The translations under genes were made by a program, and so were the position numbers. The notes below the pieces were generated by a model, which saw only the letters and a program-made list of their open reading frames with translations, was not told the origin of the DNA and did no database searches. A DNA stretch of 37,908 nucleotides from Saprospiraceae bacterium. GTDB taxonomy: Bacteria > Bacteroidota > Bacteroidia > Chitinophagales > Saprospiraceae. This document shows, one piece after another, positions 3,901 through 34,316 of this stretch. How positions within the stretch are numbered: the first letter of the stretch is position 1; every line of letters begins with the position of its first letter. The stretch lies in NCBI GenBank assembly GCA_020630735.1, contig JAHDIP010000031.1, positions 1-37,908 of the forward strand, read 5' to 3'.

Positions 3901-4153
3901 TGCTCGAAAAACTGCTACAATAGATGTCAATATTTATCCGAATCCAGTTACAGACTTTTTGACAGTTGAGCTAGATAGTGATAAGGTAGAAGCAATAACT
4001 ATACATGATATCAATGGTCAGATGAAACGACGAATCATTAGCATAAATGATAGAAAAGAAATTGATGTTAGTGAATTGCCAACGAGTACGTATTATCTCA
4101 CGATTGTTATGAAGGATCATAGCTTGGTAAGCAAAAGCTTTGTCAAAAATTAA
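998..4153 (+). CDS. T9SS-sorted secreted Asp-box (VPS10/sialidase-like propeller) protein with two FN3-like domains, copy 1
   Basis: A 1051-residue secreted protein. A hydrophobic signal segment (MKKLVLLSLPILIVVGAY) starts it. The bulk carries many Asp-box motifs (SxDxGxTW/F), for example YSDDEGATW, RSTDNGATF, YRSTNNGASF, YSNNDGNNW and STNGGQNF, typical of VPS10/sortilin- or sialidase-type beta-propellers. Two fibronectin-III-like domains follow (about 781-870 and 872-966), each opening with a conserved Cys. The last ~75 residues, from IYPNPV, are a type IX sorting domain, so the protein should cross the outer membrane by T9SS and be released or attached to the surface. No hydrolase active site was recognised, and binding or adhesion is only an inference. 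Its closest relative is the next gene, with matching domains along the whole length, so the pair arose by tandem duplication. Confidence 0.85.
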   Translation: MKKLVLLSLPILIVVGAYITFTSQQNQTPNLPQPTNGKTTLNTHQSEDGDSAEKRRGWVEMMHRAAPETNWQSIDDATRLEQYKKKKALRENPSRNAQEILANGNLIGEWFERGSNNQSGSVRKVAYDKNNDDLYAISDGGTIWKGEIDGSSWVAMNKDLRFGPKILQSTTNASGGVRLLAAIGKTVYYSDDEGATWNPSTGFNFYDDWGNNEYWSHREMVVLNDASKTVYYFTMTWDPDPWAERIWIFRSTDNGATFTKIHSTTHGEYRQVSMWSPYNSSEAYFLDQNSDLYQINGAALTLLNSNNDIPANVNLQLKGHQNGFTNTFYVLAENNKVYRSTNNGASFNLQGTTPVDAWSMGINVSLSDANALYMGAVNSYRSINGGANWTLVNEWWEYYGDVTGKLHADLMDITPFRKADNTEFTLISNHGGLSISYDKMVTNTNISLSGLNVSQYYDVITDPFDPNHLYAGAQDQGFQRSAFADNTDVVNFEQPWSGDYGHLSLANNGQSIFTVYPGGILDFYRFAQTEPYPSTSWTMIGDDRAANDWIIPTAPTTNPASQEVYMAGGNINGGPGSYLIKLTAANSSPYTITPAQYNYDFKANSNTGSGLIASIEASEIDAGRLYVGTSDGSFFYSNNDGNNWTKSSSFTGPGQHWLYGSTILASKQTPNLVYFGGSGYSNPAVYVSTNGGQNFSPMDNGLPNTLVYELAANTDESLLFAATEVGPFVYVVAEGTWYDMRGLNAPQQVYHSVEFVESSNTVRYATYGRGVWDFAIQPLLGCEVPNNVAATVISGNVLRLTWDAAASAERYRIRYRELGGTWTEKLTASTETFRFLNGLIPSTSYQYQIKTLCAASNSVWSPTYTIATSAFKCDFPESSSETNLTASTATVSWPSDPDDLKYKLKYRPDLGGNPWIELNFEGSIKNLSGLNASTLYKYKLKTKCAGGWTNWNSNAFFSTSTFVNTDVNARKTATIDVNIYPNPVTDFLTVELDSDKVEAITIHDINGQMKRRIISINDRKEIDVSELPTSTYYLTIVMKDHSLVSKSFVKN

Positions 4154-4320: not shown

Positions 4321-7300
4321 ATGAAAAATATAGGTATCCTATCTTTTTGCATCCTAATTATGCTAGCATTATGTTTTGTTTACTGTCAACAACAGGATAA
4401 AAAAATTGAATTAGCCCAACCAAAATCTTATCAAGTAGAAGAAGGAGACAATACAGAAAATCGAGAAAATTGGTTAGAAACAATTCATCGTGCAGCTCCT
4501 GGTACAAACTGGCAAGCTATCGACAATACCACTCGACTTGAACAATACGAACGAAAAAAAACACTTAGAGGAAACTCTTCTAGAAATGCCCAAGAAGTTT
4601 TAGCCAATGGAAATTTAGTCGGAAAATGGTTTGAGCGAGGAAGTAATAACCTATCTGGTAGCATTCGAAAAGTAGCTTACGATAAAGATAAGAATATCGT
4701 CTATGCCATATCGGATGGAGGTACTATTTGGCAAGGTAATTTAGATGGTTCTTCTTGGACGCCCAAAAACGAAGACTTGCGTTTTGGTCCTAAAATTTTA
4801 AAGCTTACTACTAACGCTGCTGGTACAAAACGCTTACTTGCGGCAATTGGTAAAACAGTTTATTATTCCGATGATGAAGGCCTAACTTGGGATGCTTCGA
4901 CTGGTTTCAATTTCACTACAACTTGGGGAGATAACGAAAATGCAAGTAAAAGAGATATGGTCATTCTTAATGATGCCAACAAAACGATTTACTACTATAC
5001 CAATTATTCGGAAGGTAGTAGTGGAGGCGAACGAGTTCAGCTATTCCGTTCTATAGATAATGGAACAACTTTTACAAAAATATTTGGCACAACACATAAT
5101 AAGTATAACCAAGTTTCGATGTGGTCTCCTCATAATTCTTCAGAAGCTTACTTCCTAGATCGAAATAGTGATCTTTACCAAATCAATGGTGCATCACTTA
5201 CACTCTTAAACAGTAATGATGATATATCTGCTGGCTTTAATCAACAGCTCGAAGGTCATAAAAGCGATTCGATTACAACCTTCTATGTTTTAACAGCTCA
5301 ACATAAATTATATCGCTCAACTGACAATGGAGCAAACTTCGACTTTATAGGCACTACTCCTAATACCACATTTAGAGTCGGTATAGGTGTTTCACTTTCT
5401 GATGCCAATACACTTTACACGGGTGAAGTCTATAGCTATCGCAGTACGGATGGTGGACTTAGCTGGACAGTAGTTAACGATTGGCGTGATTACTATGATG
5501 ATCCGTTACATAAAATTCACGCTGACATCATGGATTTTAGTTCTTTCAAAAAAGCTGATGGTACAGAATTCACCCTAATCTCCAATCATGGTGGTTTGAG
5601 TATTTCGTATGATAAAATGCTTACAAATACCAATATTGGTTTAGCTGATCTTAATGTTAGTCAGTACTACAATTCTATAACCTCACCTTCAAATCCTGAT
5701 ATGTTATATGCTGGCTCACAAGACCAAGGATGGCAACGTTCTTTTGCTGCTAATAATTCTACAGTTCTAGATTTAGAACAAGCTAGGCGAGGTGACTATG
5801 GTTATCTAACTTTAGTCAATAATGGGCAAAGCCTTTTCATGGTATATCCTGGTGGCACTTTAAATTTTTACCAATATCCAACATCTCAAGTCTATCCGTC
5901 ATCTAGTTGGGAATTACCAGGTCTTGATCGTCCCGCGGGAGATTGGATTATCCCTATCGAAGCGACTACTAATACAGCGTCTCTAGAAGTCTACATGGCT
6001 GGTGGAAATATAAGTGGCAATTCGGGTTCTTATTTAATAAAATTAACCGCATCTATTGATCCAGATACCATTACACCTTTTCAATATAATTATAATTTTA
6101 AAACAAACTCTACTACGGGTACTGGTTTAATTGCCTCTATCGAAGCATCCGAAATAGATGTAGGTAGGCTTTATGTTGGTGCAAGTGATGGTTCTTTTTT
6201 TTATAGTAATGATAATGGCAATAGTTGGACAAAGTCGTCAAGCTTTGACGATCCCAGCCAAAGTTGGTTATACGGAGCTACTATAGTTGCTTCAAAACTA
6301 ACACCTGATTTAGTTTACTACGGAGGGAGTGGGTATTCCAATCCCGGTGTGTATGTTTCTACCAATGGAGGTCAAACATTTACGCCTATGACTAATGGTT
6401 TACCAAGCACCGTCGTATACGATTTAGCAACTAACAATGACGAAAGTTTACTCTTTGCAGCGACTGATGTTGGTCCTTATGTCTATGTCTTTGCAGAGGA
6501 TACTTGGTACGATATGCGTGGGCTCAATGCTCCCCAACAAGTTTACCGTTCAGTAGAATTTGTTGACTCTAGTAATACGGTACGTTTTACTACCTTTGGT
6601 CGAGGTATTTGGGATTTTGCGATTCAAACTTTACTGGGTTGTGCCGAGCCTTGCAATATTTCAGCTTCTGTTATTAGTGGAAATGTACTTCGACTTTCTT
6701 GGGATGCTGCCGCTAGTGCAGAACGATACAGAATTCGATATAGAACAATAGGTGGAACTTGGATAGAAAAATTAACAGCTAGAGACGAAACATACCGTTT
6801 CCTTAATGGACTAACAGAATCGACAACTTATGAATACCAAATCAAAACACTTTGTGTTGCTGCTAACTCTGTTTGGTCTCCTATATTTACCATTAGCACG
6901 AGCACTTACAAATGCGATTTCCCCGAAAGCTCTACAGCCGATAATCTTAGTGCCACTACTGCAAGCATAAGTTGGTCACCTGATCCTGATGATTTAAAAT
7001 ACAAACTAAAGTACAAAGCTGATGAAGGACAAAATGCTTGGATCGAATTAAATTTTGTAGGTCCAAACAAAAATATTTCAGGCTTAAATGCAGGTACTTT
7101 ATATAAATACAAACTAAAAACCAAATGTGCTGGCGGCTGGACAAACTGGAATAGCAATGCCTTTTTTAGTACCAGTAACTTTGTAAATACAGATATAAAT
7201 GCTCGTGCGACCAATTTCACAAACATCAAGACTTATCCAAACCCTGTAAATGATCTATTGACGATAGAGCTAGATAGTGAAAAAGTAGCAGCAATCACCA

Positions 7301-7452
7301 TCCATGATATCAATGGTCAACTGAAAAAACAAATCATTACGATAAATGATACCCAACAAATTGATGTAAGTATGTTACCACCAAATACTTATTATCTAAG
7401 TATTGTCATGAAAGATCATAGTTTAGTTAGCAAAAACTTTATCAAAAAATAA
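4321..7452 (+). CDS. T9SS-sorted secreted Asp-box propeller protein with two FN3-like domains, copy 2
   Basis: A 1043-residue paralogue of the preceding gene with the same order: signal peptide, a conserved region around HRAAPGTNWQAIDNTTRLEQ, Asp-box propeller repeats (YSDDEGLTW, RSIDNGTTF, YRSTDNGANF, YRSTDGGLSW, YSNDNGNSW), two Cys-initiated FN3-like domains, and a C-terminal sorting domain starting at TYPNPV. The export route should be T9SS. Identity to copy 1 is high across the whole chain and highest in the FN3 and sorting parts; differences cluster in the first ~50 residues and in loops between blades. A TATCTTTA box (4256-4263) resembles the Bacteroidota -7 element, which suggests independent transcription. 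Ligand and activity are unknown. Confidence 0.85.
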   Translation: MKNIGILSFCILIMLALCFVYCQQQDKKIELAQPKSYQVEEGDNTENRENWLETIHRAAPGTNWQAIDNTTRLEQYERKKTLRGNSSRNAQEVLANGNLVGKWFERGSNNLSGSIRKVAYDKDKNIVYAISDGGTIWQGNLDGSSWTPKNEDLRFGPKILKLTTNAAGTKRLLAAIGKTVYYSDDEGLTWDASTGFNFTTTWGDNENASKRDMVILNDANKTIYYYTNYSEGSSGGERVQLFRSIDNGTTFTKIFGTTHNKYNQVSMWSPHNSSEAYFLDRNSDLYQINGASLTLLNSNDDISAGFNQQLEGHKSDSITTFYVLTAQHKLYRSTDNGANFDFIGTTPNTTFRVGIGVSLSDANTLYTGEVYSYRSTDGGLSWTVVNDWRDYYDDPLHKIHADIMDFSSFKKADGTEFTLISNHGGLSISYDKMLTNTNIGLADLNVSQYYNSITSPSNPDMLYAGSQDQGWQRSFAANNSTVLDLEQARRGDYGYLTLVNNGQSLFMVYPGGTLNFYQYPTSQVYPSSSWELPGLDRPAGDWIIPIEATTNTASLEVYMAGGNISGNSGSYLIKLTASIDPDTITPFQYNYNFKTNSTTGTGLIASIEASEIDVGRLYVGASDGSFFYSNDNGNSWTKSSSFDDPSQSWLYGATIVASKLTPDLVYYGGSGYSNPGVYVSTNGGQTFTPMTNGLPSTVVYDLATNNDESLLFAATDVGPYVYVFAEDTWYDMRGLNAPQQVYRSVEFVDSSNTVRFTTFGRGIWDFAIQTLLGCAEPCNISASVISGNVLRLSWDAAASAERYRIRYRTIGGTWIEKLTARDETYRFLNGLTESTTYEYQIKTLCVAANSVWSPIFTISTSTYKCDFPESSTADNLSATTASISWSPDPDDLKYKLKYKADEGQNAWIELNFVGPNKNISGLNAGTLYKYKLKTKCAGGWTNWNSNAFFSTSNFVNTDINARATNFTNIKTYPNPVNDLLTIELDSEKVAAITIHDINGQLKKQIITINDTQQIDVSMLPPNTYYLSIVMKDHSLVSKNFIKK

Positions 7453-14204: not shown

Positions 14205-14766
14205 AAAGTATTTATTTGTCTTTTGTTTAAGGGAGTTAAATCAGGAAAATGACGCAGGATTTTTTCTTTTAACAATAGAAGTTGTTTAAAAAGTATGTTG
14301 ATAATTGAAGGTAAAAGCTTGGATGTCAGGACAAAGCTCTTTTTGAGTTTCGTAGCCATAGCTACGGGACGAAAAAAAGCTGAAGGACCTGGCTGCCAAT
14401 GATTTGCCTGTAGATATTAAGATACTTTTTAAACAACTTCATAAAGAAAGAACAACGTTAGGTTTGGATTCTTGTTTTCTAATTCCCTAAACAGCTTCTT
14501 TAACGTTGGTTAGATGGGTTTGATACAAAAATAAGGACATTTCTTGATTTTTTCATCAGATTTCTTGTTTATCCATTTTTTATCTAAAAGATGATAGAAG
14601 GGAAGGTATGTAAACACAATACGACAGAACGACAATTTTCCTATATCTATGTCTTCGATTATGTTTTAATTTTCAAAACACAATCGGATTTTCATTAAGT
14701 AATTGCTAGGACAAAATCTGTGTTTATCCTTTTTCTTCTAGTAATTAACAATCTACCAAATCTGTA
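14205..14766. other. 562-nt non-coding gap with several inverted repeats
   Basis: No credible coding frame. It contains the 163-bp palindromic element (14278-14440), an 8-bp inverted pair caacgtta/taacgttg (14453-14460, 14501-14508), and a 12-bp near-perfect hairpin (14656-14667 with 14675-14686, one G-T pair, 7-nt loop). The hairpin has no adjoining T-tract, so it is not a standard terminator for the gene ending at 14767. The rest (14520-14640) shows nothing recognisable. Confidence 0.6.
14278..14440. repeat. 163-bp palindromic (MITE-like) element
   Basis: The ends are a perfect 19-bp inverted repeat: gaagttgtttaaaaagtat at 14278-14296 and its complement at 14422-14440. Inside, about two thirds of the remaining positions also pair, with one single-base offset, and the apex is cgtagc-cata-gctacg (14351-14366). 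The whole stretch can therefore fold into one long hairpin. The trinucleotide ata flanks both ends (14275-14277 and 14441-14443), compatible with a short target duplication but too short to prove insertion. It encodes nothing. Confidence 0.75.
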
Positions 14767-17427: not shown

Positions 17428-17991
17428 TTATATTACTTTTGACGAGTTGATCGCTTGTTTGATCATCTCTTGCAAACGTTTTCTAGCAAATGACAAATGC
17501 CATTTTGAAGTACCATCACTAATGCCTAATAGTTCTCCTATTTCTTTATGTCGGTAGCCATCAATTGCATAAAGGTTGAATACTTTCTGGCTAACTGGTG
17601 GTAATTGTTTGATCAGATATTCTAATTGTTCAGCACTCAATGCCGCATCAGCAGTGCCGTAATCAATTAGATCGTGATACTCTTCTTCTCTTGAAAAACT
17701 CGTATATTCAATAAGTTCTTTTACTTTTCTATTCTTTCTAAATTCGTCAATGATCGTATTAATCATAATTCGCTTTATCCATGCCTGGAAGGGAACTTCT
17801 GGTCGATACTTATTGATGTTATTGAGTATCTTCAAAAAGCCTGTATTTAAAACGGCTGCTGCTTCTTGTTCATCTTTTTTATACCGAAAACAAACCCCCA
17901 TTAGGATGTTATAACAGCGTTTGTATAGCTGAAACTGTGCCTTGCGATCACCTTTTGCACAATCATCTAATAGCTGTTGGTCTATTTTCAT
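17428..17991 (-). CDS. Sigma-70 family (ECF-type) RNA polymerase sigma factor
   Basis: A 187-residue sigma factor with region 2 (about 20-90: FRYKKDEQEAAAVLNTGFLK, then FQAWIKRIMINTIIDEFRKN) and region 4 (about 122-178: QLPPVSQKVFNLYAIDGYRH, then a helix-turn-helix at 147-172 with GISDGTSKWHLSFARKRL). There is no region 1 or 3, as in ECF factors. It should direct RNA polymerase to promoters controlled by an envelope signal. It is the first gene of the operon with the barrel protein and the lipoprotein. A 72-bp repeated sequence lies 55 nt upstream of its start codon (18046-18117). Confidence 0.93.
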   Translation of the reverse strand: MKIDQQLLDDCAKGDRKAQFQLYKRCYNILMGVCFRYKKDEQEAAAVLNTGFLKILNNINKYRPEVPFQAWIKRIMINTIIDEFRKNRKVKELIEYTSFSREEEYHDLIDYGTADAALSAEQLEYLIKQLPPVSQKVFNLYAIDGYRHKEIGELLGISDGTSKWHLSFARKRLQEMIKQAINSSKVI

Positions 17992-18045
17992 ATTTTTTAC
18001 AAAAAAGAGTTATTTCTTAAAAAAACTGTTTTTAAGTAAAGAGCA

Positions 18046-18117
18046 ACCAAAGTGGTTTTCGGATTGTCAAACGAATAAAGTTACTAAAAATCAAATGATA
18101 GCTATTCGTAATGATCC
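18046..18117 (+). repeat. Copy A of a 72-bp dispersed repeat
   Basis: Aligned without gaps to the reverse complement of 29829-29900, 59 of 72 positions agree (about 82%). The strongest part is tggttttcggattg, followed by caaacga and later aaaatcaaa; both copies end in tgatcc. It lies in the intergenic space upstream of the sigma gene and downstream of the SprB-type gene's terminator. It has no coding potential. Confidence 0.75.
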
Positions 18118-18150
18118 TTGCACTTATAACTGAACATTAATCTTTTAAAA

Positions 18151-18210: not shown

Positions 18211-21200
18211 TTATTGCTTTACCATCTTCTTCGTAATCACCTCTTTGCCATTCGATATCGTTAGGAAGTAAAGACCACTTGTCAATCTTGTAGCATCCAA
18301 TCTCAATGTTTGAACACCTCTATTGATCGATTGTGTTTCTTGGTGTAATAACTGACCATTAACATTTAGAATGCTAAACTGAGCATCAATAAGCGCATTG
18401 CTTTCGATTTGGATATAGGCAACTTCTCCTACTGGATTCGGGAATATAGCAACACCATCTTCTTCTATCACATCAGCAATAGCGACAGTAGAAGCTATTT
18501 CAAATTCGATATCATCAGCGATAGGATTATCAGGTCCAATGGTAATGATTTGGAAAATTGGTTCTCCACCTATAATCTCAATATACACTTTGTATGTTCC
18601 CCAAGGAAGGTCATTAAATTCAAAGCGCCCTTCTTCGTCTGTTAAGCGATGTGTGAATGGATTGTCATTTACATCCAATAATAAAACAGAAACATTTGGT
18701 AGTGGTGTTCCATTTCTATCTTCAATATTTCCATCCCATAAACCATTTCCATCCGTTACGATACCATTGATACCACCTGGGCCAGTAAGTCCATCACCAG
18801 GAATCAGGTTGATATCAAAAGATGATATTCCACCATAAGGTATATTGATGACTTCAGCATCTGACCAGAATAAAACATCGCCATAATAGGTAGGTAAGAA
18901 ATCTTCAAAGCCAGCCATTGTGGAAAATAATTCTGCTTTTACAAAATATTGCCCAACAGGTACATCACCAAAATTGTAAAAACCTCCAAAACTATTTGGA
19001 CTTAAAAGAATCTCTGTTGTATCACAAACAATTGCTTGTCCAGTATCGTCTACTTTTACTAAATAGGCATAGCCCATAACAGCAGCAGCAGGGTCCATTA
19101 TTGGATAAACATAACCCGTAATATTCCAGTACTCAGGTAAATCCGTTGTAATGTAACAGGCTTCAGCAACGCAGTTGTTTGCATCTGTTATCGTTACACA
19201 ATATTCATTGCCTATTATTGGATTAATTTCGGTATAGTTTGATGTAGAACCATTGTTCCATTCATAAGTATAAGGTGCAATACCAGATGGGTATGCTTCT
19301 AAAATATTGACACCTGCAGAGTCAGCAGGAAAAATCGTAACCGAACAATCATCAGGATTTGGAAACTCAATATCTACACAAGCGAAGTTGGTACAACCAG
19401 TAGCATCTACCATTTCTACGCAGTAAGTACCTGCTCCATTTACAAAAATATTTTCTCCTGTATTTCCATTATTCCAATAATACTCAATTGGTTCTGTACC
19501 TTCTCCATTAGCAGAAACGATAAACTCTGTACCACTATTATTAATAGCTTCGAAAGTAGGATTTAAGAAGCATGGTCCTGAACCGATAAAAACATCTTCA
19601 CACCATTCGGCTTCACAACCTGTGGCATCCGTAACTGTTACACAATATACACCATCTTCTTCTACAAATATTTCCGAAGTTGTTTCACCCGTATTCCATT
19701 CATAAGTGAACGGTCCTTGTCCCCAAGTAGCAGCGATTAATATTGCCCCACCAGCATCAGGCGCAGGATTAACACCTATTTCTACTCCACATTCATTCGG
19801 GAATGGTTCGTAGCAAGCAGTAGAAACACATCCTGTCGTTACACTTATAGCTTCTACACAATAGATATCTGAATTATTACCCATGACAATTTGTTGGGTA
19901 GTTTCGCCCGTATTCCAGTAGTATTCAAACGGCCCTTCTCCTTCAGCATAAGCGATTAACATATTAGCTGAATCGAGAGGTTCTATGAATACAAAACAGT
20001 CAGGGTCTATTTGACCAACATCAATACAAGCAAAGTTTGAGCAACCCATGGCGTCGATCATTTCTACGCAGTAGGTACCAGCCTCAGCAACCACGATTGA
20101 CTCTCCTACATCTCCATTATCCCAAATGTATTCAATTGGTAATACACCAATACCATTTGTATAAAGTACATACTCTCCCGATGCCAATTGATCATAAGAA
20201 GGTTGTAATTCACATTGATCAATAATATCTATAATCACATCTTGGCACCATTCGGCTTCACAACCTGTGGCATCCGTAACTGTTACACAATATACACCAT
20301 CTTCTTCTACAAATATTTCCGAAGTCGTTTCGCCAGTACTCCATTGGTAAGTAAATGGTTCTTCTCCCCATGTATTGGTCATCAAAATCAGACCGCCACC
20401 TGGTGCAGGATCACATAAAAATTCTATGCCGCAATCTGGAATATTTTCATAGCAGTTGTAAGCGCCACAACCTGTCGTAACACTTGTTACTTCTACACAA
20501 TAACTATCTTGATTGTTATCCATCACGATATATTGTGTTGTTTCGCCTGTATTCCAAATGTATTCAAATGGTCCTTCTCCTTCTACATTTGCAAAAAGAA
20601 TATTTACACCAGTAGAATCTGCGGACTCAACTATTACGGAACAATCAGGGTTAGGATTACCAATATCAAAACAGCTTGAAGACAAACACCCCATTGCATC
20701 AATTACATCGACACAATACGTACCATTTTCCGTTACGAAAATAACTTCTGTTTCTTCGCCAGTACTCCAAAAATATTGAAATGGTTCTACACCAAAAGCA
20801 TCTGCAAAAAGTGCAAGACCTGTATTTAAAGAATCTAATTCGATATTGACAAAACAAATATTTTCGATGTCTACTTGCTGGCAATGATCAGAAGTACAGC
20901 CTACTGCATCGGTAATTGTTACACAATAAAAGCCCGAATCTGTAATTGTAATTTCGGAAGTTGTCTGACCTGTACTCCATTCATACGTAATCGGTTCTAC
21001 TCCCCAGCCAAAAGCGGATAAGAACAATCCACCAGCAGGATCAGGATCACAAGACCATTCTAAACCACAATCTTGATTTTCTTCAAGATCATAGCAAGAT
21101 TCAGAAACACAACCAATAGCATCCGTTACTGTTACACAGAAAAAACCTGGTCCCTGTACAAAAATCTCTGAACCAGTTTGTCCATCATTCCATTGATAAG

Positions 21201-22299
21201 TAAAAGGAGCCATGCCTTGCGCATCAGCTATTAGCATATTTAAGCCTGTCGGAGAAATTCCTTCATCAATAATATTCACAAAGCAAAAAGTATCTACCAC
21301 TATCTCTGGTATAACCTCGATACATGCAGAAGCGGTACAACCTGTTTGGTCGATCATTTCTACACAGTATATACCTGGTAATTCAGCATAAAATTCTTGA
21401 CCAAATTCATTGGTACTCCAAACATATTCAATAGCTCCTGTACCTTGTCCTTCAGCAAATAATATTGCTGGTGCTATTACTTGGTCAACATTTGGATTAC
21501 TTGGGTTAGCCCAAATAGTTACAATACAATCGCTACCGTTATTTTGGCAAGCTTCGGCTGTACAGCCATTTGCATCTGTAATCGTTACACAATAAAATTG
21601 AGCATCTATTGCAGCTATGACTTGAGTCGTTTCACCATTATTCCATTGAAAAGTAAAAGGTGGTGTACCATCAGCAAATGCCTGTAGACCTCCTATATCA
21701 TTCCAATCGACATAAGCACTACAATCTGGATTTCCGCTCAATTGTACATCAGTACAAGCTACATTAGCCCCATCAGGACAAGAAGCAGAAGTAATCGTTA
21801 CACAATAAATTCCTGATTGTTCAGCTACAGTTTCAGGTCCTTCGTCACCCGTACTCCAATAAAACATATAGTCGTCAGTAACAACTGTGGTATGGGCAAA
21901 TAAGTATGCTTCAGATCCTATGGGATCAAAATATTCGGTTTCAATCCATAACTCGCAATTATCACCACCGCTTCCATTTTCACAATAGACCAAAGTAGTC
22001 GTTATATCTGCCAAGTTAGGTGTATACTCAAACTCTTGTGTGTATAAACTGCTATCGCAATCGACCATCTGCACGTAAATAGTACCTACGACATTTGGTT
22101 CTACTCCTACGTCAAGACCAAAAAAGCCATTTGCATCTGTTTGTACCGTTTCCATCGATAAATTAGTACCAATAAAAATATCTATACCCGAAACAGGTGC
22201 ACCATCTGGTGTAATAACATAGCCAGTGAGATTGACCGCTTGAGCAAATAGACCCAAGGAATAACATAGGATAGTAAGGGATAATAAAAATTTCTTCAT
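18211..22299 (-). CDS. Large secreted adhesin-like protein with 13 SprB-type repeats and T9SS sorting domain
   Basis: A 1362-residue protein. ATG at 22299 is chosen because it opens directly on a signal peptide (MKKFLLSLTILCYSLGLFAQ); an upstream in-frame ATG at 22344 would add 15 unlikely residues. After an N-terminal carboxypeptidase-regulatory-like domain (VNLTGYVITPDGAPVSGIDI) come 13 tandem ~65-residue units of the SprB type. Each starts with Cys, has PFxYxWxxGxTT in the middle, and ends YCVxxxDAxGCxxxxC. Units 5-13 form three copies of a three-unit super-repeat. A further carboxypeptidase-like domain (NGIVTDGNGLWDGN ... GRFEFNDLPWGTYKVYIE) precedes the sorting domain from FPNPVGEV. SprB is the gliding adhesin of Flavobacterium, so surface adhesion is likely, though motility is not shown. 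Each unit's paired Cys suggest disulfides. Confidence 0.85.
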   Translation of the reverse strand: MKKFLLSLTILCYSLGLFAQAVNLTGYVITPDGAPVSGIDIFIGTNLSMETVQTDANGFFGLDVGVEPNVVGTIYVQMVDCDSSLYTQEFEYTPNLADITTTLVYCENGSGGDNCELWIETEYFDPIGSEAYLFAHTTVVTDDYMFYWSTGDEGPETVAEQSGIYCVTITSASCPDGANVACTDVQLSGNPDCSAYVDWNDIGGLQAFADGTPPFTFQWNNGETTQVIAAIDAQFYCVTITDANGCTAEACQNNGSDCIVTIWANPSNPNVDQVIAPAILFAEGQGTGAIEYVWSTNEFGQEFYAELPGIYCVEMIDQTGCTASACIEVIPEIVVDTFCFVNIIDEGISPTGLNMLIADAQGMAPFTYQWNDGQTGSEIFVQGPGFFCVTVTDAIGCVSESCYDLEENQDCGLEWSCDPDPAGGLFLSAFGWGVEPITYEWSTGQTTSEITITDSGFYCVTITDAVGCTSDHCQQVDIENICFVNIELDSLNTGLALFADAFGVEPFQYFWSTGEETEVIFVTENGTYCVDVIDAMGCLSSSCFDIGNPNPDCSVIVESADSTGVNILFANVEGEGPFEYIWNTGETTQYIVMDNNQDSYCVEVTSVTTGCGAYNCYENIPDCGIEFLCDPAPGGGLILMTNTWGEEPFTYQWSTGETTSEIFVEEDGVYCVTVTDATGCEAEWCQDVIIDIIDQCELQPSYDQLASGEYVLYTNGIGVLPIEYIWDNGDVGESIVVAEAGTYCVEMIDAMGCSNFACIDVGQIDPDCFVFIEPLDSANMLIAYAEGEGPFEYYWNTGETTQQIVMGNNSDIYCVEAISVTTGCVSTACYEPFPNECGVEIGVNPAPDAGGAILIAATWGQGPFTYEWNTGETTSEIFVEEDGVYCVTVTDATGCEAEWCEDVFIGSGPCFLNPTFEAINNSGTEFIVSANGEGTEPIEYYWNNGNTGENIFVNGAGTYCVEMVDATGCTNFACVDIEFPNPDDCSVTIFPADSAGVNILEAYPSGIAPYTYEWNNGSTSNYTEINPIIGNEYCVTITDANNCVAEACYITTDLPEYWNITGYVYPIMDPAAAVMGYAYLVKVDDTGQAIVCDTTEILLSPNSFGGFYNFGDVPVGQYFVKAELFSTMAGFEDFLPTYYGDVLFWSDAEVINIPYGGISSFDINLIPGDGLTGPGGINGIVTDGNGLWDGNIEDRNGTPLPNVSVLLLDVNDNPFTHRLTDEEGRFEFNDLPWGTYKVYIEIIGGEPIFQIITIGPDNPIADDIEFEIASTVAIADVIEEDGVAIFPNPVGEVAYIQIESNALIDAQFSILNVNGQLLHQETQSINRGVQTLRLDATRLTSGLYFLTISNGKEVITKKMVKQ
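19601..19680. repeat. 80-bp exact direct repeat, copy 1 (within SprB-type gene)
   Basis: Bases 19601-19680 are identical to 20246-20325. They encode the end of repeat unit 11 (TSEIFVEEDGVYCVTVTDAT onward). The spacing of 645 nt equals 215 codons, the length of the three-unit super-repeat. Confidence 0.9.
20246..20325. repeat. 80-bp exact direct repeat, copy 2 (within SprB-type gene)
   Basis: Identical to 19601-19680 and encoding the same part of repeat unit 8. Silent sites are also unchanged, whereas the rest of units 8 and 11 differs, which points to recent duplication or gene conversion. Confidence 0.9.
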
Positions 22300-22416
22300 T
22301 ATTAGATTTATTAGATTGTGATTTTTCCTTTCGACCTCATACACGCATGTATTTTTTGAAAGGTTGGGTTGTTTCTATATTTTTTTTATTTTTTTATCAA
22401 AGCCTTGAATATTTAG

Positions 22417-26481: not shown

Positions 26482-29400
26482 ATGAAACAATTAATCAACC
26501 AATTCTTGTTTATAATATTGTTCATCAACGCCATTCAAGCTCAACAGCTCTTAATAGGGACCGTCACCGATGGAGATAGTGCAGAAGCACTTATTGGTGC
26601 TACGATACTAGAAGTGGGTACGACTAATGGTACAACATCAGATATTGATGGTTCGTATTCGATTACACTTTCCAGTGCAGATGCTTCTATTGAAATCACT
26701 TATGTTGGTTATGAAAAACAAATCATTGCAGTAGCAGGTCAAAAAGTAATTGATGTACAACTTTTGGTTGGTGGTATTAATATGGACGAAGTAGTCGTTA
26801 CTGGTCTTGGTATCAAACGTCAAAAAAGAGAACTCGGCTACTCTACCGAAAAATTTAAAGGTGCGGACATTGCACGATCAAATGCTCCTAATCTCGTCAA
26901 TGCACTTAGTGGAAAATCGGCTGGTGTCAATGTCGTTAGTCCAAATGGCGTTGGTGGTGGAACAAGTCGAATTACCATTCGGGGAAATAATAATATCGAA
27001 GGAAATAACCAACCACTCATTATTGTAGATGGCGTGCCTTTAGAAAACGAACCTGGTTCGACAAGTATTGGTAGAGGAAAAGATTGGGGTTCTGCCATTA
27101 ATAACATCAACTCAGAAGATATTGAAAGTATCAATATTTTGAAAGGACCTACTGCCGCTGCCAAATACGGAACAAGAGGCGCTAATGGGGTTATTCTAAT
27201 CACGACAAAAAAAGGAAGTCCTAAAAAAGGATCTGGTGTAGAATATACCGTCACCTACAACTTAGCCAACCCATATCGTTATCGAGATGTTCAGAACACC
27301 TTTGGTGCAGGCGGACCGCTCAATCTTTTAGAACCAACGTTCAAAACAAATTCGGATGGAGAGTTCGTTTATCCTGCAAGTGTACATACGAGTAATGGAC
27401 CATATGGCAGACCTACTACTGAACAATTTGGTTTTTACTCAACAGGAATGTCTTGGGGACCAAAAATGGAAGGTCAAATGGTCAGATGGTGGGATGGTCA
27501 ATTACGCTCTTTCGATCCTCAACCTGATAATCTTAAACAGTTTTTTAGTAATGGTTCTACCTTAACAAATAATGTAAGTTTTACTAGAGGAAATGACCAA
27601 GGCTCTATTCGAGTTTCTTTAACAGCTCAAAACCATGACGCAGTAATTCCCAATTCTAACTTTCATCAATATACTGCAAACATTGGATCAACTTATAAAA
27701 TCAATGAAAAAATAAGCACAACTATTTCGATGTCTTATGTCAATTATAATCGAAAAAATAGTCCCTCTTTAGGCGATGATAATAATGCTTCTTTTGGTAA
27801 AGGAATTTTGTATAGCTGGCCACGGTCATATAAAGGCCTCGAAGAGACGTTGAACATCAATCCAGATGGAACCCGTTTTGAATATGATGGCAACTATCCT
27901 TTTACCTACACACCGAATCATCTTTGGTGGAACACCTATCATCAAAACACCTATCAAACCAAGAATAAAATGATCGGTAGTTTGGGCTTACAATATCAGC
28001 CTTTTGCTTGGCTAAACATTACAGGAAGAACAGGTATGGATTTTAATATCAATGAATTTGAAGAGCGTTTTGATCCAACTGATCTGACAGGCGTTAATGG
28101 TGCGAAATATAGCAATGAATTAGTGAGGGATCGAGTGCTCAATAATGAAGTATTGGTAACTGCTTTTAAAGATGGTATCTTCCATTCCAATTTTGATGTG
28201 AGCTTTTCTGTAGGAGGCAACCAATGGTCGAGAAGTCAATACGGCATAAAAGCTGAGGCTTCTAACTGGCAAAATCCGTCTTTATATACCTTCAATAATT
28301 ATGAAGAAATTAGAGAAGGAAATCTACCGTCAGAAATTCGTTTTGACAAAAAAATAAATTCCGTTTTTTCCTTTTTGAATCTTTCGTTTAGCGATTTTAT
28401 TTTTCTAGAATTATCAGGAAGAAATGATTGGTCTTCCTCTTTGCCCACAGAGAGCAATTCTTATTTTTACCCATCTGCTTCGCTTAGTTATATCTTGACG
28501 GAATCGTTTGATCTCGGAAAAACCCCGATCAGTTTTTTGAAGCTTCGTGCAGCTTATGCTCAAACAGCAAATGATACTGACCCTTTTTTACTCGACTTTA
28601 TTTATGAAACAGGCACTTTTGGAGGACAACAAACGGCCAGTTACCCAAATACGAAACCGCCAGTTTCTCTAAAACCTCAAACAGCTAATTCCTATGAAGT
28701 AGGTTTAACCGCTGGTCTGTTTAATGATAAACTCAACTTTGATTTCACTTATTATTACATCAAATCATTTGATCAAATTTTAGATTCACCTGTACCCACT
28801 TCTTCGGGGGTCAATGAAGTACGAATCAATAGTGGCATTTTAGAAAACTATGGTTTCGAATTAGGTATTAATGCTACTATTGTACAAAAACCAAGTTTCA
28901 GCATACAGACTGGCTTAAATTTAAGCCGTAATAGGAACTTTGTCCTTAGCCTTGGCGAAGGGGCAAAGACCTTAGAGTTAGATAATATTTGGGGATTGTT
29001 TGGACCCAATATTTCAGTTCAAGAAGGGCAAGAATATGGCACCATTTACGGCTACGATTATGTATACCACGAAGGTACAGGACAACCTATTTTGAATGAT
29101 GAAGGAACACATTATTTAGTCAGTAGTAATTTGATGCCTGTAGGAAACTCTTCACCTGATTTTATGGGAGGTTGGACATTGAGTGTTCGTTACAAACGTT
29201 TTTCCTTAAACACGTTAGTCGATGCAAAAATTGGTGGCGATATTTATGCTGGTTCCTATGTTATTGGTTTGCAAACAGGGCAAAGTCCCGAAACCTTAGT
29301 AGAGCGAACAGGTGGTGGACTACCTTACGAAGACCCAAGTGGCGAAGTCCGAAATATAGGAGTCATTTTACCTGGAGTATATAGCGACGGAACAGAAAAC

Positions 29401-29730
29401 AATACCGTTGTTCACCACTATTACAAATATATTCCGAATGCTGGTGGCTGGGGACAATTGTTAACGACGCCTGGGATTTTAGATAACACATGGGTAAAGA
29501 TGAGAGAGATTGCTTTTACTTATGACATCCCAACAAACATTACTAAAAAGCAACTCTTTCAAAAATTACAACTTTCTTTAGTAGGGCGTGATCTTTTTTA
29601 TTTCTACACTTCCCTACCCGACCGTATTAATCCTGAGGGGACAAATGGCGCAGGTAATGCACAAGGTCTCGAATGGGCTTCTTATCCTGGAATCAGAAGT
29701 TTTAGTTTACGTTTGTCAATTGGTTTGTAA
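26482..29730 (+). CDS. SusC/RagA family TonB-linked outer membrane transporter
   Basis: A 1082-residue TonB-dependent outer-membrane protein. A signal peptide (MKQLINQFLFIILFINAIQA) is followed by a carboxypeptidase-regulatory-like N-domain (GTVTDGDSAEALIGATIL), a TonB-box-like segment (DEVVVTGLGIKRQKRELGYS), the plug (NVVSPNGVGGGTSRITIRGN, INILKGPTAAAKYGTRGANG) and a 22-strand-type barrel ending SFSLRLSIGL. It should import a ligand bound by the adjacent SusD lipoprotein, using TonB energy. An AAAGGA sequence sits ~8 nt before the ATG. The SusD gene follows after an unusually long 246-nt spacer holding a repeat. No glycoside hydrolase or SusR/anti-sigma regulator is next to it, so the substrate cannot be assigned; peptides or glycans are both possible. 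Confidence 0.96.
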   Translation: MKQLINQFLFIILFINAIQAQQLLIGTVTDGDSAEALIGATILEVGTTNGTTSDIDGSYSITLSSADASIEITYVGYEKQIIAVAGQKVIDVQLLVGGINMDEVVVTGLGIKRQKRELGYSTEKFKGADIARSNAPNLVNALSGKSAGVNVVSPNGVGGGTSRITIRGNNNIEGNNQPLIIVDGVPLENEPGSTSIGRGKDWGSAINNINSEDIESINILKGPTAAAKYGTRGANGVILITTKKGSPKKGSGVEYTVTYNLANPYRYRDVQNTFGAGGPLNLLEPTFKTNSDGEFVYPASVHTSNGPYGRPTTEQFGFYSTGMSWGPKMEGQMVRWWDGQLRSFDPQPDNLKQFFSNGSTLTNNVSFTRGNDQGSIRVSLTAQNHDAVIPNSNFHQYTANIGSTYKINEKISTTISMSYVNYNRKNSPSLGDDNNASFGKGILYSWPRSYKGLEETLNINPDGTRFEYDGNYPFTYTPNHLWWNTYHQNTYQTKNKMIGSLGLQYQPFAWLNITGRTGMDFNINEFEERFDPTDLTGVNGAKYSNELVRDRVLNNEVLVTAFKDGIFHSNFDVSFSVGGNQWSRSQYGIKAEASNWQNPSLYTFNNYEEIREGNLPSEIRFDKKINSVFSFLNLSFSDFIFLELSGRNDWSSSLPTESNSYFYPSASLSYILTESFDLGKTPISFLKLRAAYAQTANDTDPFLLDFIYETGTFGGQQTASYPNTKPPVSLKPQTANSYEVGLTAGLFNDKLNFDFTYYYIKSFDQILDSPVPTSSGVNEVRINSGILENYGFELGINATIVQKPSFSIQTGLNLSRNRNFVLSLGEGAKTLELDNIWGLFGPNISVQEGQEYGTIYGYDYVYHEGTGQPILNDEGTHYLVSSNLMPVGNSSPDFMGGWTLSVRYKRFSLNTLVDAKIGGDIYAGSYVIGLQTGQSPETLVERTGGGLPYEDPSGEVRNIGVILPGVYSDGTENNTVVHHYYKYIPNAGGWGQLLTTPGILDNTWVKMREIAFTYDIPTNITKKQLFQKLQLSLVGRDLFYFYTSLPDRINPEGTNGAGNAQGLEWASYPGIRSFSLRLSIGL

Positions 29731-29828
29731 AAATATTTCATGCTAAAAAAGAGTACGTTATCGAAAACTATTCGGTGTAAGCTAATGAGTTAAAGTGACG
29801 AAGATATACCTACCGGTATTCGGTTTTC

Positions 29829-29900
29829 GGATCATCATAGGTAGCTAACGTTTGATTTTCAGTAGCTTTAATCGTTTGGCAATCCGAAAACCATTTTGGG
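29829..29900 (-). repeat. Copy B of a 72-bp dispersed repeat, between susC and susD
   Basis: Its reverse complement matches 18046-18117 at 59 of 72 positions with no gaps. In this copy the left flank adds a perfect 11-bp inverted repeat, ggttttcggat (29822-29832) against atccgaaaacc (29882-29892), with a 49-nt loop, so the mRNA between susC and susD could fold here. Copy A lacks that pairing. Confidence 0.75.
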
Positions 29901-29976
29901 TTCTGTATAGTTAAACAAAACAAAAATTTTAAACACACGAAACGTCCATCTGGTCTTGACTTAAAATAAAAAACAC

Positions 29977-31560
29977 ATGAAGTTTTTAAAATATAGCTAC
30001 CTTCTATTCCTTTTATGCCTTACTCAAAGTTGTGATAAAGGCTTCGAAGAACTCAATGTCGATCCTTTGTCTCCGACAGAAGCACAAGATGGTCCTATTT
30101 TCAATAGCATTGTAGAATCACTAAAGTTAGGTTGGAATAGACAACTGTTTTTACACAACGAAAAGTTGTATGACGTGACCGAATTAGCAGTTGTAACTGC
30201 TGCAACTTTTGGCAATGAAGAAAGTGGTGCTGAAGATGTTTGGTCAAATTATTATACCGCTTTAAGAAATGCAAGAGATTTGGAAAATCGCTTCGCTAAT
30301 TATTCTGGTGACTTTGATGCTACTAATATTGTCCGTGCACAATTAAAAATTCTAATGGCTTACAAAACGTTTCAAATCACAGATTTGTTTGGTTCTATCC
30401 CATACACAGAAGCAGGAAGAGCCTACGATGGAGATTTTATTCTTCGCCCTAAGTATGATGATCATGAATTGATTTACAAATCATTAATCGACGATCTTTT
30501 TTGGGCAGTTGATATTCTGAATAACAGTGGTACAACTACTTCCTCAGGAGAATCTTATTTAAGCTACGGATCTTTTGAAACGCTTTTTGGGAATAACTTG
30601 GGGCAATGGTCTACTTTTGCCAATTCTTTATTACTTCGATATTTAGTTCGCATTTATGATGTTGCTCCCGACTATGTTGCGCCAAAGGTAAAAGGTCTGA
30701 TTGATAACGGTGCAAATTTTATTACAGAAGGAGGAGATATTGTCATGTTACCTTCGGCACAAGGATGGTCAAATGAAGGAGTCAACTGGTCTTTTAGAGA
30801 GCATAACAAAGTACGAATGGGAAGTACAATTTGGAAGCTCATGACAGCCGATGATTCTGACGAAATCCTTGACCCTCGTTTAGCAATTTTCTATGAACCT
30901 AATAATGCTGGCGAATGGAAAGCCTTTCCTCAAATTCCCAACGAAGATACACCGCAATCTGGAGGCACTCCGTACTCTAATGCTAGAGATCAAAACTATG
31001 ACGATAAAGGTGCAGGCAATATCTATGCCTCTGTCAATTATTATTTAATTCGAGATGAAGACCATATTCCAGAAATATTGATGACTTCTGCCGAAGTACG
31101 ATTTTTATTATCAGAAATATTTTTACGTGGTATTGGGGTTGCTGCAGATGCTTCCAATGCTGATTTCAATTATCAATTAGGTATGTTAGAATCAATGAAA
31201 TTTTGGACAAATATTGTCGAGAATTCACAGATATGGGTCAATCGTCCATTCTTACCAACGATAGCAGAAATGTATGCAATTGTCACTCATCCAAAATATA
31301 GTTTAGCAGAAGTAGACGACGAAGCGAGCAAACTAGAACGTATTTATACCCAACGTTGGGTGGATACTTTTCGTCAACCTTGGGAAGCCTTTTCTTTACT
31401 TCGACGTACCAATAAGGTTCCAAGAGAAAAAACACAAAATACTTTTAATCGGTTCAAGTATCCACCTTCTGAATTAAACTTTAATGCCGAAAATTATAAT
31501 GCCCAACTTAGTAAAATGGGGGGTGATCTTAATACCGTTAAATTATGGTGGATGGACTAA
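29977..31560 (+). CDS. SusD/RagB family nutrient-binding outer membrane lipoprotein
   Basis: A 527-residue lipoprotein (MKFLKYSYLLFLLCLTQSC, lipobox Cys19) of the SusD-like group 2 type. The mature N-terminus CDKGFEELNVDPLSPTEAQD is characteristic of this group. It also has the TPR-type helical core (ILMAYKTFQITDLFGSIPYT, TFANSLLLRYLVRIYDVAPD) and the conserved end (RRTNKVPREKTQNTFNRFKY, PPSELNFNAENYNAQL). It caps the SusC barrel at the cell surface and delivers ligand to it. The length is typical. No terminator with a T-tract was found after it. Confidence 0.94.
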   Translation: MKFLKYSYLLFLLCLTQSCDKGFEELNVDPLSPTEAQDGPIFNSIVESLKLGWNRQLFLHNEKLYDVTELAVVTAATFGNEESGAEDVWSNYYTALRNARDLENRFANYSGDFDATNIVRAQLKILMAYKTFQITDLFGSIPYTEAGRAYDGDFILRPKYDDHELIYKSLIDDLFWAVDILNNSGTTTSSGESYLSYGSFETLFGNNLGQWSTFANSLLLRYLVRIYDVAPDYVAPKVKGLIDNGANFITEGGDIVMLPSAQGWSNEGVNWSFREHNKVRMGSTIWKLMTADDSDEILDPRLAIFYEPNNAGEWKAFPQIPNEDTPQSGGTPYSNARDQNYDDKGAGNIYASVNYYLIRDEDHIPEILMTSAEVRFLLSEIFLRGIGVAADASNADFNYQLGMLESMKFWTNIVENSQIWVNRPFLPTIAEMYAIVTHPKYSLAEVDDEASKLERIYTQRWVDTFRQPWEAFSLLRRTNKVPREKTQNTFNRFKYPPSELNFNAENYNAQLSKMGGDLNTVKLWWMD

Positions 31561-31904
31561 AAACGAATTCAATATATTGTTATTGAAATACCAACTTTTT
31601 CAGGAATCAATGCAAAAATCCAATTTTTGTGCTCTTTTTGAGTTTAGAACAACCTCATCTTTATATTTCAAAATTTATGTTTTAGTCCACTAGGCAAAAC
31701 GTTTACGATGCAGAGCGTCAGTCAAGGTTTTCGCAATAATTACATTCAACTAAGATTTTAGTTCGAAATTAATCAAGTAGTATTCAAACAACTTCTATAT
31801 GAAATATACGCTTAAAAAATTGAAGCCTACCTTTTTTTTACTTATTTTAGATATCACATGAAAAATAAGTAAAAAACGATTTAGTTTATTAATTTCATAA
31901 ACCG
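31561..31904. other. 344-nt gap between SusD and FG-GAP genes
   Basis: No supported gene. A weak 7-bp hairpin (ttcaata/tattgaa) lies just after the susD stop without a T-tract. A 20-codon frame at 31799-31861 begins like a signal peptide (MKYTLKKLKPTFFLLILDIT) but is probably chance or a remnant. The main structure is the AT-rich inverted repeat at 31834-31876. Confidence 0.5.
31834..31876. repeat. AT-rich 15-bp inverted repeat upstream of the FG-GAP gene
   Basis: Perfect arms ttttttacttatttt (31834-31848) and complement (31862-31876) around a 13-nt loop, ending 28 nt before the ATG at 31905. With T-runs on one side and A-runs on the other it could be a weak terminator in either direction or a leader structure. 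Confidence 0.5.
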
Positions 31905-34316
31905 ATGAAAAAAAATAAATTAAAAATATGGTCATGCTTTAAAGTTGCATCATTAGTTGTATGCCTCTTTACACTTTTTGTACATACAACTTATGCTCAA
32001 GGCTTTACTAATATCAGCAATGCATTGGATCTACCTCAGGCATTTAGAAATGGAGGTGGAGGTATTGGTGGTTATGGTGCAGGAATAAGTTTTGTAGACT
32101 TCAACCAAGATGGTTTAGATGACTTAACTATCCCTACAGGAAAAAACCAGCCGATTCTTTTTCTCTTAAATAATGGTAATGGATTTGATGAAATTCCTTC
32201 TTTAGTAGATGATTCGACTGAAATAAAACAAGTACTTTGGATTGACTATGACAACGATAGTGATCTCGATTTATATATTACCTCTAAATTTACCAATAAA
32301 CTTTACAAAAACACTGGTAATCTCAACCTAGTAGATATCACTGCTACTTGTGGATTTAACGATCCCGAAGCCATCTCTTATTGTGGATCATGGTTTGATT
32401 ATGACAGAGATGGATTACTTGATCTTTGCATTTCTCATCGTATCAATATCCTTGAAGGACATACTAAACTTTATAAAAACTTAGGCAATGACCAATTTCT
32501 AGATATTACTCCTGCAGTAGGACTTTCAAACATTGGAGTTAGTGTGTTATCTATGGCAGTTTTCGATATGAATAACGATGGCTGGGAAGATATTTTCCTC
32601 GGACAAGATTTTAGTATTGGTTGCATCTTAATGAAAAATAAAGGAGATGGCACCTTTGAAAATATATCTTATTCGAGCAACACAAATATCCAAAACGATT
32701 GCATGACAGTAACAGTTGGTGATTACAATAATGATGGTTGGATGGATCTTTACTTAACAGATACTAGTCAAGGAAATTCTTCCTTATTAGAAAATCAAGG
32801 CGATGAAACTTTCATCGAAAAAGCTGCGTTGAAAGGCGTTGACCTCGCTGGTAATTTTTGCTGGGGAAGTATTTTTATTGATGCAGATAATGATATGGAC
32901 CTCGATCTACATGTTTCGACTATAAGTCAAAGTTATTTTTTCGATAACCAAAATAATGGTCAAACATTTATAGATGCGACTACAATATGGGGCTTAGGTG
33001 ATGATGATAATTATAGCGTAGGTGCTGCTATAGGTGATCATAACAATGATGGTAAAACTGATTTTGTTGAAAACAATTACTTTCCTATTTCGCTTGTTAA
33101 TCCTTATCCTTATCAAGATTCATTAACTAGCTTTTGGCAAAATAATTTTACAGAAAACAACTATATCAATATAAATCTAGAAGGTACCGAGTCGAACAAA
33201 AAAGCTGTTGGTACAGTAACACATGTTTATGTTGAGGAAGTACATCAGATGCGGCGAGTAGGTTGTGGCGAAGGTTTCAGTTCACAAAATTCGTATACTC
33301 AATTTTTTGGTTTAGGTACCTTTACTCTTATAGATAGTATCATCGTAGAATGGCCTAGCGGATTAAAAACGACGCTTTCAAATATTGAAGGCAATCAACT
33401 ATTGTCTATCACAGAACCTAGTTTTGTACTTGGTTGTATTGATAGTTCTTCTTGCAATTACAATCCTTCAGCAAATATCGATGATGGTTCATGTTGGTAT
33501 CCTGATGCATATCTTGACTGTTTCGGAAATTGCTTAAATGATGTTGATGCTGATGGTATTTGTGATGAATTGGAAATTGCAGGTTGTACAGATTCTACTT
33601 CTTGCAACTACAATCCCAATGCTACTGATGATGACAACTCTTGCACCTACGCCCTACTTTATTATGACTGTAATGGCACCTGTATAAATGATACAGACGC
33701 TGATAACGTTTGCGATGAATTGGAAATTGCAGGTTGTATGGATACTACTGCTTGTAATTATAACAACCTTGCTACCGATGACGCTACCTGTTTTTATTTT
33801 GAAAACCATTCTATAGATGGCACACAAGAAGCTTTAAACTTAACACCTTATATTTATAACTATCCTTCTAATCCCTCAAGCGATTACTATTGGGAAATAA
33901 GTGGCGCAGATGGTAATATCATCAGTGGACAAGGAACGACAAGTATTGAAGTCATCTGGGATGGTATTGGTGAAAGCATTGTTAAAGTAACAGAAACAAA
34001 TGAAGGCTTGTGTGAAAATTCTAATGAACTTAACGTTACTATTTCAGAACTAGTAAATCAAAATACAGCCACAAATCCAAACGTTCTACTATATCCCAAC
34101 CCTGTAGAAAATCTATTACAGATTGACCTCAGTAGACGAACAGATGAAACGATTAATCTTCTCCTTTATGATATCAATGGACGCATACATTTGCAAAAAA
34201 CGTACTCATCAACTCCTATCTTTTTGGATATAAATCCCTTTGATAATGGTATTTACCAACTCCAATTAATCAACGGAACAGAGCAATATAGAGCCCAAGT
34301 GATTATTATTCATTAA
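31905..34316 (+). CDS. T9SS-sorted FG-GAP/VCBS and UnbV (ASPIC) domain protein with Cys-rich repeats
   Basis: An 803-residue secreted protein with a signal peptide (VASLVVCLFTLFVHTTYAQ). Residues ~45-400 hold seven FG-GAP/VCBS-type repeats with calcium-binding loops (DFNQDGLDD, DYDNDSDLD, DYDRDGLLD, DMNNDGWED, DYNNDGWMD, DADNDMDLD, DHNNDGKTD), a predicted seven-bladed propeller. A UnbV/ASPIC module follows (RRVGCGEGFSSQNSYTQFFG, DSIIVEWPSGLKTTL). Next are Cys-rich repeats GC-x-D-S-x-x-CNYNPxA with DADGICDELEIAGC linkers; the linker DNA repeats exactly over 25 bp (33564-33588 and 33714-33738). A PKD-like region and a sorting domain (LYPNPVENL) close it. Probably a surface binding protein; the ligand is unknown. 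Confidence 0.88.
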   Translation: MKKNKLKIWSCFKVASLVVCLFTLFVHTTYAQGFTNISNALDLPQAFRNGGGGIGGYGAGISFVDFNQDGLDDLTIPTGKNQPILFLLNNGNGFDEIPSLVDDSTEIKQVLWIDYDNDSDLDLYITSKFTNKLYKNTGNLNLVDITATCGFNDPEAISYCGSWFDYDRDGLLDLCISHRINILEGHTKLYKNLGNDQFLDITPAVGLSNIGVSVLSMAVFDMNNDGWEDIFLGQDFSIGCILMKNKGDGTFENISYSSNTNIQNDCMTVTVGDYNNDGWMDLYLTDTSQGNSSLLENQGDETFIEKAALKGVDLAGNFCWGSIFIDADNDMDLDLHVSTISQSYFFDNQNNGQTFIDATTIWGLGDDDNYSVGAAIGDHNNDGKTDFVENNYFPISLVNPYPYQDSLTSFWQNNFTENNYININLEGTESNKKAVGTVTHVYVEEVHQMRRVGCGEGFSSQNSYTQFFGLGTFTLIDSIIVEWPSGLKTTLSNIEGNQLLSITEPSFVLGCIDSSSCNYNPSANIDDGSCWYPDAYLDCFGNCLNDVDADGICDELEIAGCTDSTSCNYNPNATDDDNSCTYALLYYDCNGTCINDTDADNVCDELEIAGCMDTTACNYNNLATDDATCFYFENHSIDGTQEALNLTPYIYNYPSNPSSDYYWEISGADGNIISGQGTTSIEVIWDGIGESIVKVTETNEGLCENSNELNVTISELVNQNTATNPNVLLYPNPVENLLQIDLSRRTDETINLLLYDINGRIHLQKTYSSTPIFLDINPFDNGIYQLQLINGTEQYRAQVIIIH

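Follow-up and report, generated by a model that had tools for sequence, protein, structure and literature searches.

A dispersed 105-bp repeat in a Saprospiraceae genome, very probably a non-autonomous transposable element inserted at TA

The locus and its two copies

The window, by which is meant the whole stretch of 37,908 nucleotides analysed here, holds a gene for an ECF sigma factor on the minus strand (17428-17991) and, on the plus strand, a TonB receptor/SusC-type gene (26482-29730) followed by a SusD-like gene (29977-31560); its phylum signal lies in SusC/SusD and in Por secretion domains. At 18211-22344 a protein of 1377 aa is encoded that combines SprB repeats with a Por secretion tail; internal direct repeats are abundant there, with a spacing of about 210-220 and 640 bp. 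The adjoining long ORFs at 998-4153 and 4321-7452 resemble a tandem duplication, with 300-bp blocks that share 73-76% identity at a distance of 3.3 kb, and repeat units recur every 150 bp at 33432-33792, inside the ORF at 31905-34316.

A similarity between two intergenic sites of this window had been pointed out in a preliminary description. The ungapped match of 18046-18117 to the reverse complement of 29829-29900 is identical at 59 of 72 positions, and the runner-up ungapped places elsewhere in the window score no better than 36/72 on this strand and 35/72 on the opposite one, which confirms that the similarity goes beyond chance; the gene positions likewise bear out the neighbours that had been named, the sigma gene and the susC-susD spacer. 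A repeat finder lengthened the pair to 87 bp at 80% identity (18031-18117 and 29829-29915). When 30 host-genome matches were aligned with their loci and with the 18-kb copy, the unit was seen to end in TATACC...GTATA, with flanks that are unrelated between copies, and the full unit by alignment with other copies is 105 bp (29805-29909), longer than the matched 72 bp.

The copy in the susC-susD spacer (29805-29909, plus strand; 113 bits by profile) is intact, its boundaries being set by alignment with other copies, and it starts 75 bp past the susC stop and ends 68 bp before the susD start. Its left terminal repeat (29805-29832, plus strand) consists of an outer block, TATAC, and an inner block, GGTTTTCGGAT, and its right terminal repeat (29882-29909, minus strand) carries the same two blocks inverted, each being an exact match to the end pattern. 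The TA at 29805-29806, with its partner at 29908-29909, presumably represents a target duplication, to judge from occupied and unoccupied pairs of other copies. The copy in the upstream region of the sigma gene (18037-18143 by profile envelope, minus strand) lies 46 bp upstream of the gene start and was also found by a profile built without it, aligned over 18042-18123 at 56 bits (E 7.6e-16). Segment by segment, its identity to the consensus is 64/74 in the core, 7/23 at the left end and 4/8 at the right end, and by this comparison it is a truncated, decayed remnant whose left end is lost and whose right end is partly lost.

A dispersed family and its relatives

The host genome is a draft assembly of 6.6 Mb in 434 contigs, in which a first DNA search gave at least 41 matches, with 40 of 293 candidates scored. 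A sequence-only profile was built from 29 copies, the 18-kb copy included, and with it the family was found at a minimum of 153 places (150 of 6,249 candidates scored). A genome-wide profile search had been proposed together with the suggestion of a small dispersed repeat family; it did not come back empty, further copies being abundant, and the suggestion held. The end pattern TATAC-N12-GGTTTTCGGAT, with at most one mismatch, occurs 220 times in the host genome, against 0 for the reversed control. Around exact end matches, 20 further copies or pieces lie beyond the profile list, each with a profile score of at least 33 bits. From the 100 listed among the 220 occurrences, in the rest of which an autonomous element's end could have escaped, 23 exact end matches outside the profile list were picked by eye and 21 were read (C393:2691 and C432:49386 being left out); these are full, internally deleted or truncated copies. 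The copy on contig C310 scores poorly with the profile (8.5 and 6.2 bits); it was accepted on two ends recognised by eye.

For comparison between copies, a set of 102 was assembled from distinct profile hits at E ≤0.01 that fall in the window or in one of 90 retrieved loci, after ten duplicate loci had been dropped; the loci were taken from the profile list in batches and are thus non-random, and the set includes four weak partial hits (18-53 bits) absent from that list. Four main subfamilies account for 35, 26, 12 and 12 of these copies, with a mean identity of 92-96% to their own consensus, and the remaining 17 form small groups outside them. The copy in the susC-susD spacer is 97% identical to the consensus of the young subfamily, so that the earlier view of both copies as old stands for the 18-kb copy and fails for this one. 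Individual copies have also been altered in other ways: that of locus L016 (contig C349) has a left end lengthened by short tandem units (GAATACT-like) in the manner of slippage, and that of L105 (contig C95, 26474-26541 and 26680-26736) is apparently interrupted by an insert of about 138 bp.

Outside the host, a DNA search with the consensus matched none of 59 relatives (36 of the same family and 23 of the same order), and a profile search at E 1e-5 matched two of 397 other genomes of the taxonomic family, here called G124 and G348, with diverged copies in both. G348, which belongs to another genus, has 9 copies at this threshold (9 scored), of which five span the full length, carry TATA at both ends and have diverged in the middle; the remaining copies are shorter or cut by contig ends. 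G124 has a single full-length copy, which lacks TATA ends; five further matches in it are pieces of 16-28 bases (E 0.01-0.6). This full-length copy (L123, 1500-1604) ends about 42 bp before a gene start, and may reflect an old insertion or a transfer, possibly co-opted. A looser profile search (E up to 0.01) matched 20 other genomes, only G124 strongly; eight loci from these were checked by profile, and the other weak matches count as unproven. Exact-pattern scans of genome-contig and viral-contig collections, which miss diverged copies and may exclude host-genome records, gave no match. Because G348 holds its own diverged set, amplification seems, on these sequences, to have taken place separately in at least two genera.

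Insertion at TA

The joined flanks of the 102 copies were compared by BLAST with loci L001-L121 and the window, which gave 28 rows spanning a junction, many of them self-matches or neighbouring copies and two of them 72% matches to the other arm of a palindrome. Five insertions have an unoccupied counterpart elsewhere in the host genome. The closest pair is the insertion at C68:155, whose empty counterpart lies in the window at 14440-14335 with 99% identity over 106 bp; it is followed by those at C268:23183 (91-93% over 44-45 bp), C139:3919 (84-88% over 50-57 bp), C386:7248 (77-78%) and C319:11153 (77%). A single TA in the unoccupied site stands against TA-element-TA in the occupied one in 7/9 comparisons; the unoccupied site has TG (L080 for C68) or AA (L104 for C386) in the other two, and every one of the five insertions has at least one TA counterpart. 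Checked letter by letter, the C68 insertion reads CTTAATATCTACAGG when empty and CTTAATATACC...CAGTATATCTA when occupied. TATA is found at both ends in 69/102 copies, with no fixed base outside, and on C111 two copies stand head to tail with a common TA. A possible sixth unoccupied site, for C87:4426 (78% identity to a 64-bp stretch of its own locus, with TA standing at the junction), was left uncounted. Each of the five insertions fits duplication of TA.

The gain of the element plus TA could also be described as insertion on the 3' side of a TA that is not duplicated and, since the unit can form a hairpin, a REP-type or IS200/IS605-type element moved through a single strand (HUH) might be proposed in place of a MITE of a DDE transposase. 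Such an origin is very improbable: the inverted terminal blocks and the lack of a conserved target beyond TA fit a TA-duplicating DDE enzyme better, and REP units are only 20-40 bp long in the available part of their description (PMC3733652).

The empty counterpart of the C68 insertion belongs to a different repeat, a 163-bp near-palindrome at 14278-14440 (no strand assigned) with ends GAAGTTGTTTAAA, which recurs in the genome at 11 near-complete places (90-100% identity) as well as at weaker ones; the 99% identity over 106 bp runs across the junction. An arm-like match to it is also found at 31767-31798. Another dispersed sequence, L045 1284-1366 on contig C245, is related to L104 and is interrupted by the 105-bp element on both C386 and C319, each time at another TA site.

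Placement, folding and coding potential

Among the 102 copies, 89 are clear of any ORF of 80 codons or more, 12 overlap an ORF edge by 4-58 bp and one lies inside a 93-codon ORF, while random 105-bp placements are ORF-free in 8.8% of cases in the same loci minus the copies (24,990 of 283,196) and in 4.3% in the window. In the orientation of the element, the neighbouring genes are arranged as ++ in 27 cases, -- in 28, -+ in 18 and +- in 12, with one neighbour unseen in 17, and no rule of orientation or arrangement relative to genes emerges from these 102 copies. A terminator family was rejected in view of the convergent pairs being the rarest arrangement (12/102), and an integron attC site in view of the lack of a fixed orientation to genes.

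It had been suggested that the two sites share a regulatory module, that is, cis-regulatory DNA or RNA lying upstream of genes and serving their co-regulation. The placement of the 18-kb copy close upstream of the sigma gene and of the other copy in the susC-susD spacer would agree with this, as would the G124 copy shortly before a gene start, and the intact 29.8-kb copy has a better predicted fold than shuffled sequences on either strand (z -2.3 and -3.7). However, the family occurs in both orientations and in all arrangements, the 18-kb copy has a fold only slightly better than that of shuffled sequences (z -1.9 and -0.6), promoter-like sites around it number 1 against 1.7 in shuffles, and the TA insertion pairs show mobility. 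Covariance, which had been named as a way to recognise RNA structure, gave no two-sided change at any of 11 predicted pairs in the alignment of 29 copies, and the inner-block pairs 18-88, 23-83 and 24-82 form in only 54%, 50% and 43% of the 102 copies. A module of this kind is thus left without support and is very improbable indeed, and a structured RNA or riboswitch was rejected on the lack of compensatory change, the broken inner pairs and the lack of any Rfam family at gathering score in the window. The terminal repeats themselves are imperfect: positions 1-5 and most of 18-28 pair, and the linker is unpaired, positions 6, 7, 9-13 and 15-17 pairing in at most 12% of copies. Inverted ends of this form would fit recognition by a transposase rather than an RNA fold.

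That the repeat is part of a protein-coding gene, or a gene for a small peptide, has a negligible probability. The minus-strand frame of the 29.8-kb copy stays open for some 32 codons until a stop close to the end and has a slight excess of variability at the third position (0.128, 0.101, 0.141), but it is open in only 6 of the 89 copies of 103-107 bp, the last codon being ignored; the frame most often open, plus/2 (43/89), is not most variable at its third position (0.138, 0.101, 0.128). No reading frame is conserved across these 89 copies, and a coding origin was rejected on this ground.

A MITE and its mobiliser

The repeat is best explained as a non-autonomous transposable element (MITE) of 105 bp that lacks a transposase gene of its own, a reading to which a probability of roughly nine in ten is given. 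It is short, multicopy and dispersed, has imperfect terminal inverted repeats, duplicates its target and carries no transposase gene; a related autonomous element with the same ends, which is often absent in MITEs, was not found with three Pfam transposase families in the draft genome. The element has nothing but imperfect terminal inverted repeats, two in number and each about 28 bp long, that enclose a short non-coding middle. A transposase provided in trans is envisaged as binding the inner block GGTTTTCGGAT and cutting at the outer block TATAC, and the unit would insert at TA, which is thereby duplicated. Spread in several waves would have given rise to the four main subfamilies, and selfish spread of this sort may be the cause of the abundance. 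Other insertions were presumably lost to selection, leaving copies almost only between genes, where they would decay in place, the 18-kb copy being such a remnant.

TA duplication is typical of IS630/Tc1-mariner-type transposases, and it is because TA is duplicated that a mobiliser of this type is considered likeliest, RUP offering a precedent (PMC2229807). PF13358 and PF13340 have no match in the host draft genome, and PF01609 has one host gene, cut by a contig end, whose readable part is without an element end, so that an autonomous element with matching ends was not found with these three Pfam transposase families in the draft assembly. The IS630 remnants of G348 have different ends or no recognisable ones. 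The transposase may have been lost, may have escaped assembly or may belong to a family outside these three. Contigs end at or inside copies (C219, C137, C259, C89, C160, C237 and the start of C2), and therefore a gap in the assembly is plausible; the repeat itself is a probable cause of assembly breaks as well. A bolder and rather unlikely extension is that an undescribed TA-targeting transposase, supplied from outside the assembled genome or lost, reads a split repeat (TATAC, an unpaired asymmetric linker, GGTTTTCGGAT), and that some copies, such as that in the susC-susD spacer, now set the expression of their neighbours.

Several small repeats of other bacteria are comparable, as far as the available parts of their descriptions go. 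The Correia/NEMIS element of Neisseria has a form of about 107 bp with TA termini, terminal inverted repeats, target duplication and a dispersed distribution (PMC2229807), and by this description the 105-bp element resembles it in size, TA ends, terminal repeats, target duplication and dispersal. Correia has 24 contiguous paired end bases, and a 155-bp form with an IHF site (PMC2229807), unlike the 105-bp element, in which pairing of the ends is confined to two short blocks separated by an unpaired linker. RUP of Streptococcus pneumoniae (107 bp, about 108-110 copies) has a TA target, terminal repeats and an intergenic location (PMC2229807, PMC3049150), its ends resemble those of the resident IS630-Spn1 (PMC2229807), and it is over-represented between convergent genes (PMC3049150). 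Size, copy number, TA, terminal repeats and intergenic placement are all shared with RUP, and duplication of a TA target agrees with a RUP-type, IS630-derived element; in contrast to RUP, no partner IS came to light in the host with PF13358 and PF13340, and the convergent arrangement is the rarest for the 105-bp element. ERIC of enterobacteria, an intergenic repeat of 127 bp that has TA ends and terminal repeats and for which an orientation-dependent effect on mRNA is reported (PMC2229807), is alike in these three features and unlike in length. Within the phylum Bacteroidota, non-autonomous repeats are likewise described from Cardinium, whose MITE has a parental IS982 element (PMC9769881), and from Porphyromonas gingivalis, whose MITE contains a minisatellite (PMC4596501). 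No earlier description of the 105-bp family was recognised in the available portions of the literature searched, and the repeat is most fittingly classed as a new family within a kind of element that is well known, set beside Correia and RUP by description.

Significance

Recognition of this family explains the repeat in the window and guards against mistaking it for a regulatory module. The genome carries MITEs in numbers comparable to those given for RUP (about 110 copies). Separate bursts in no fewer than two genera of a single taxonomic family make a search for the mobiliser feasible, and the insertions at TA would be usable as markers for the comparison of strains.
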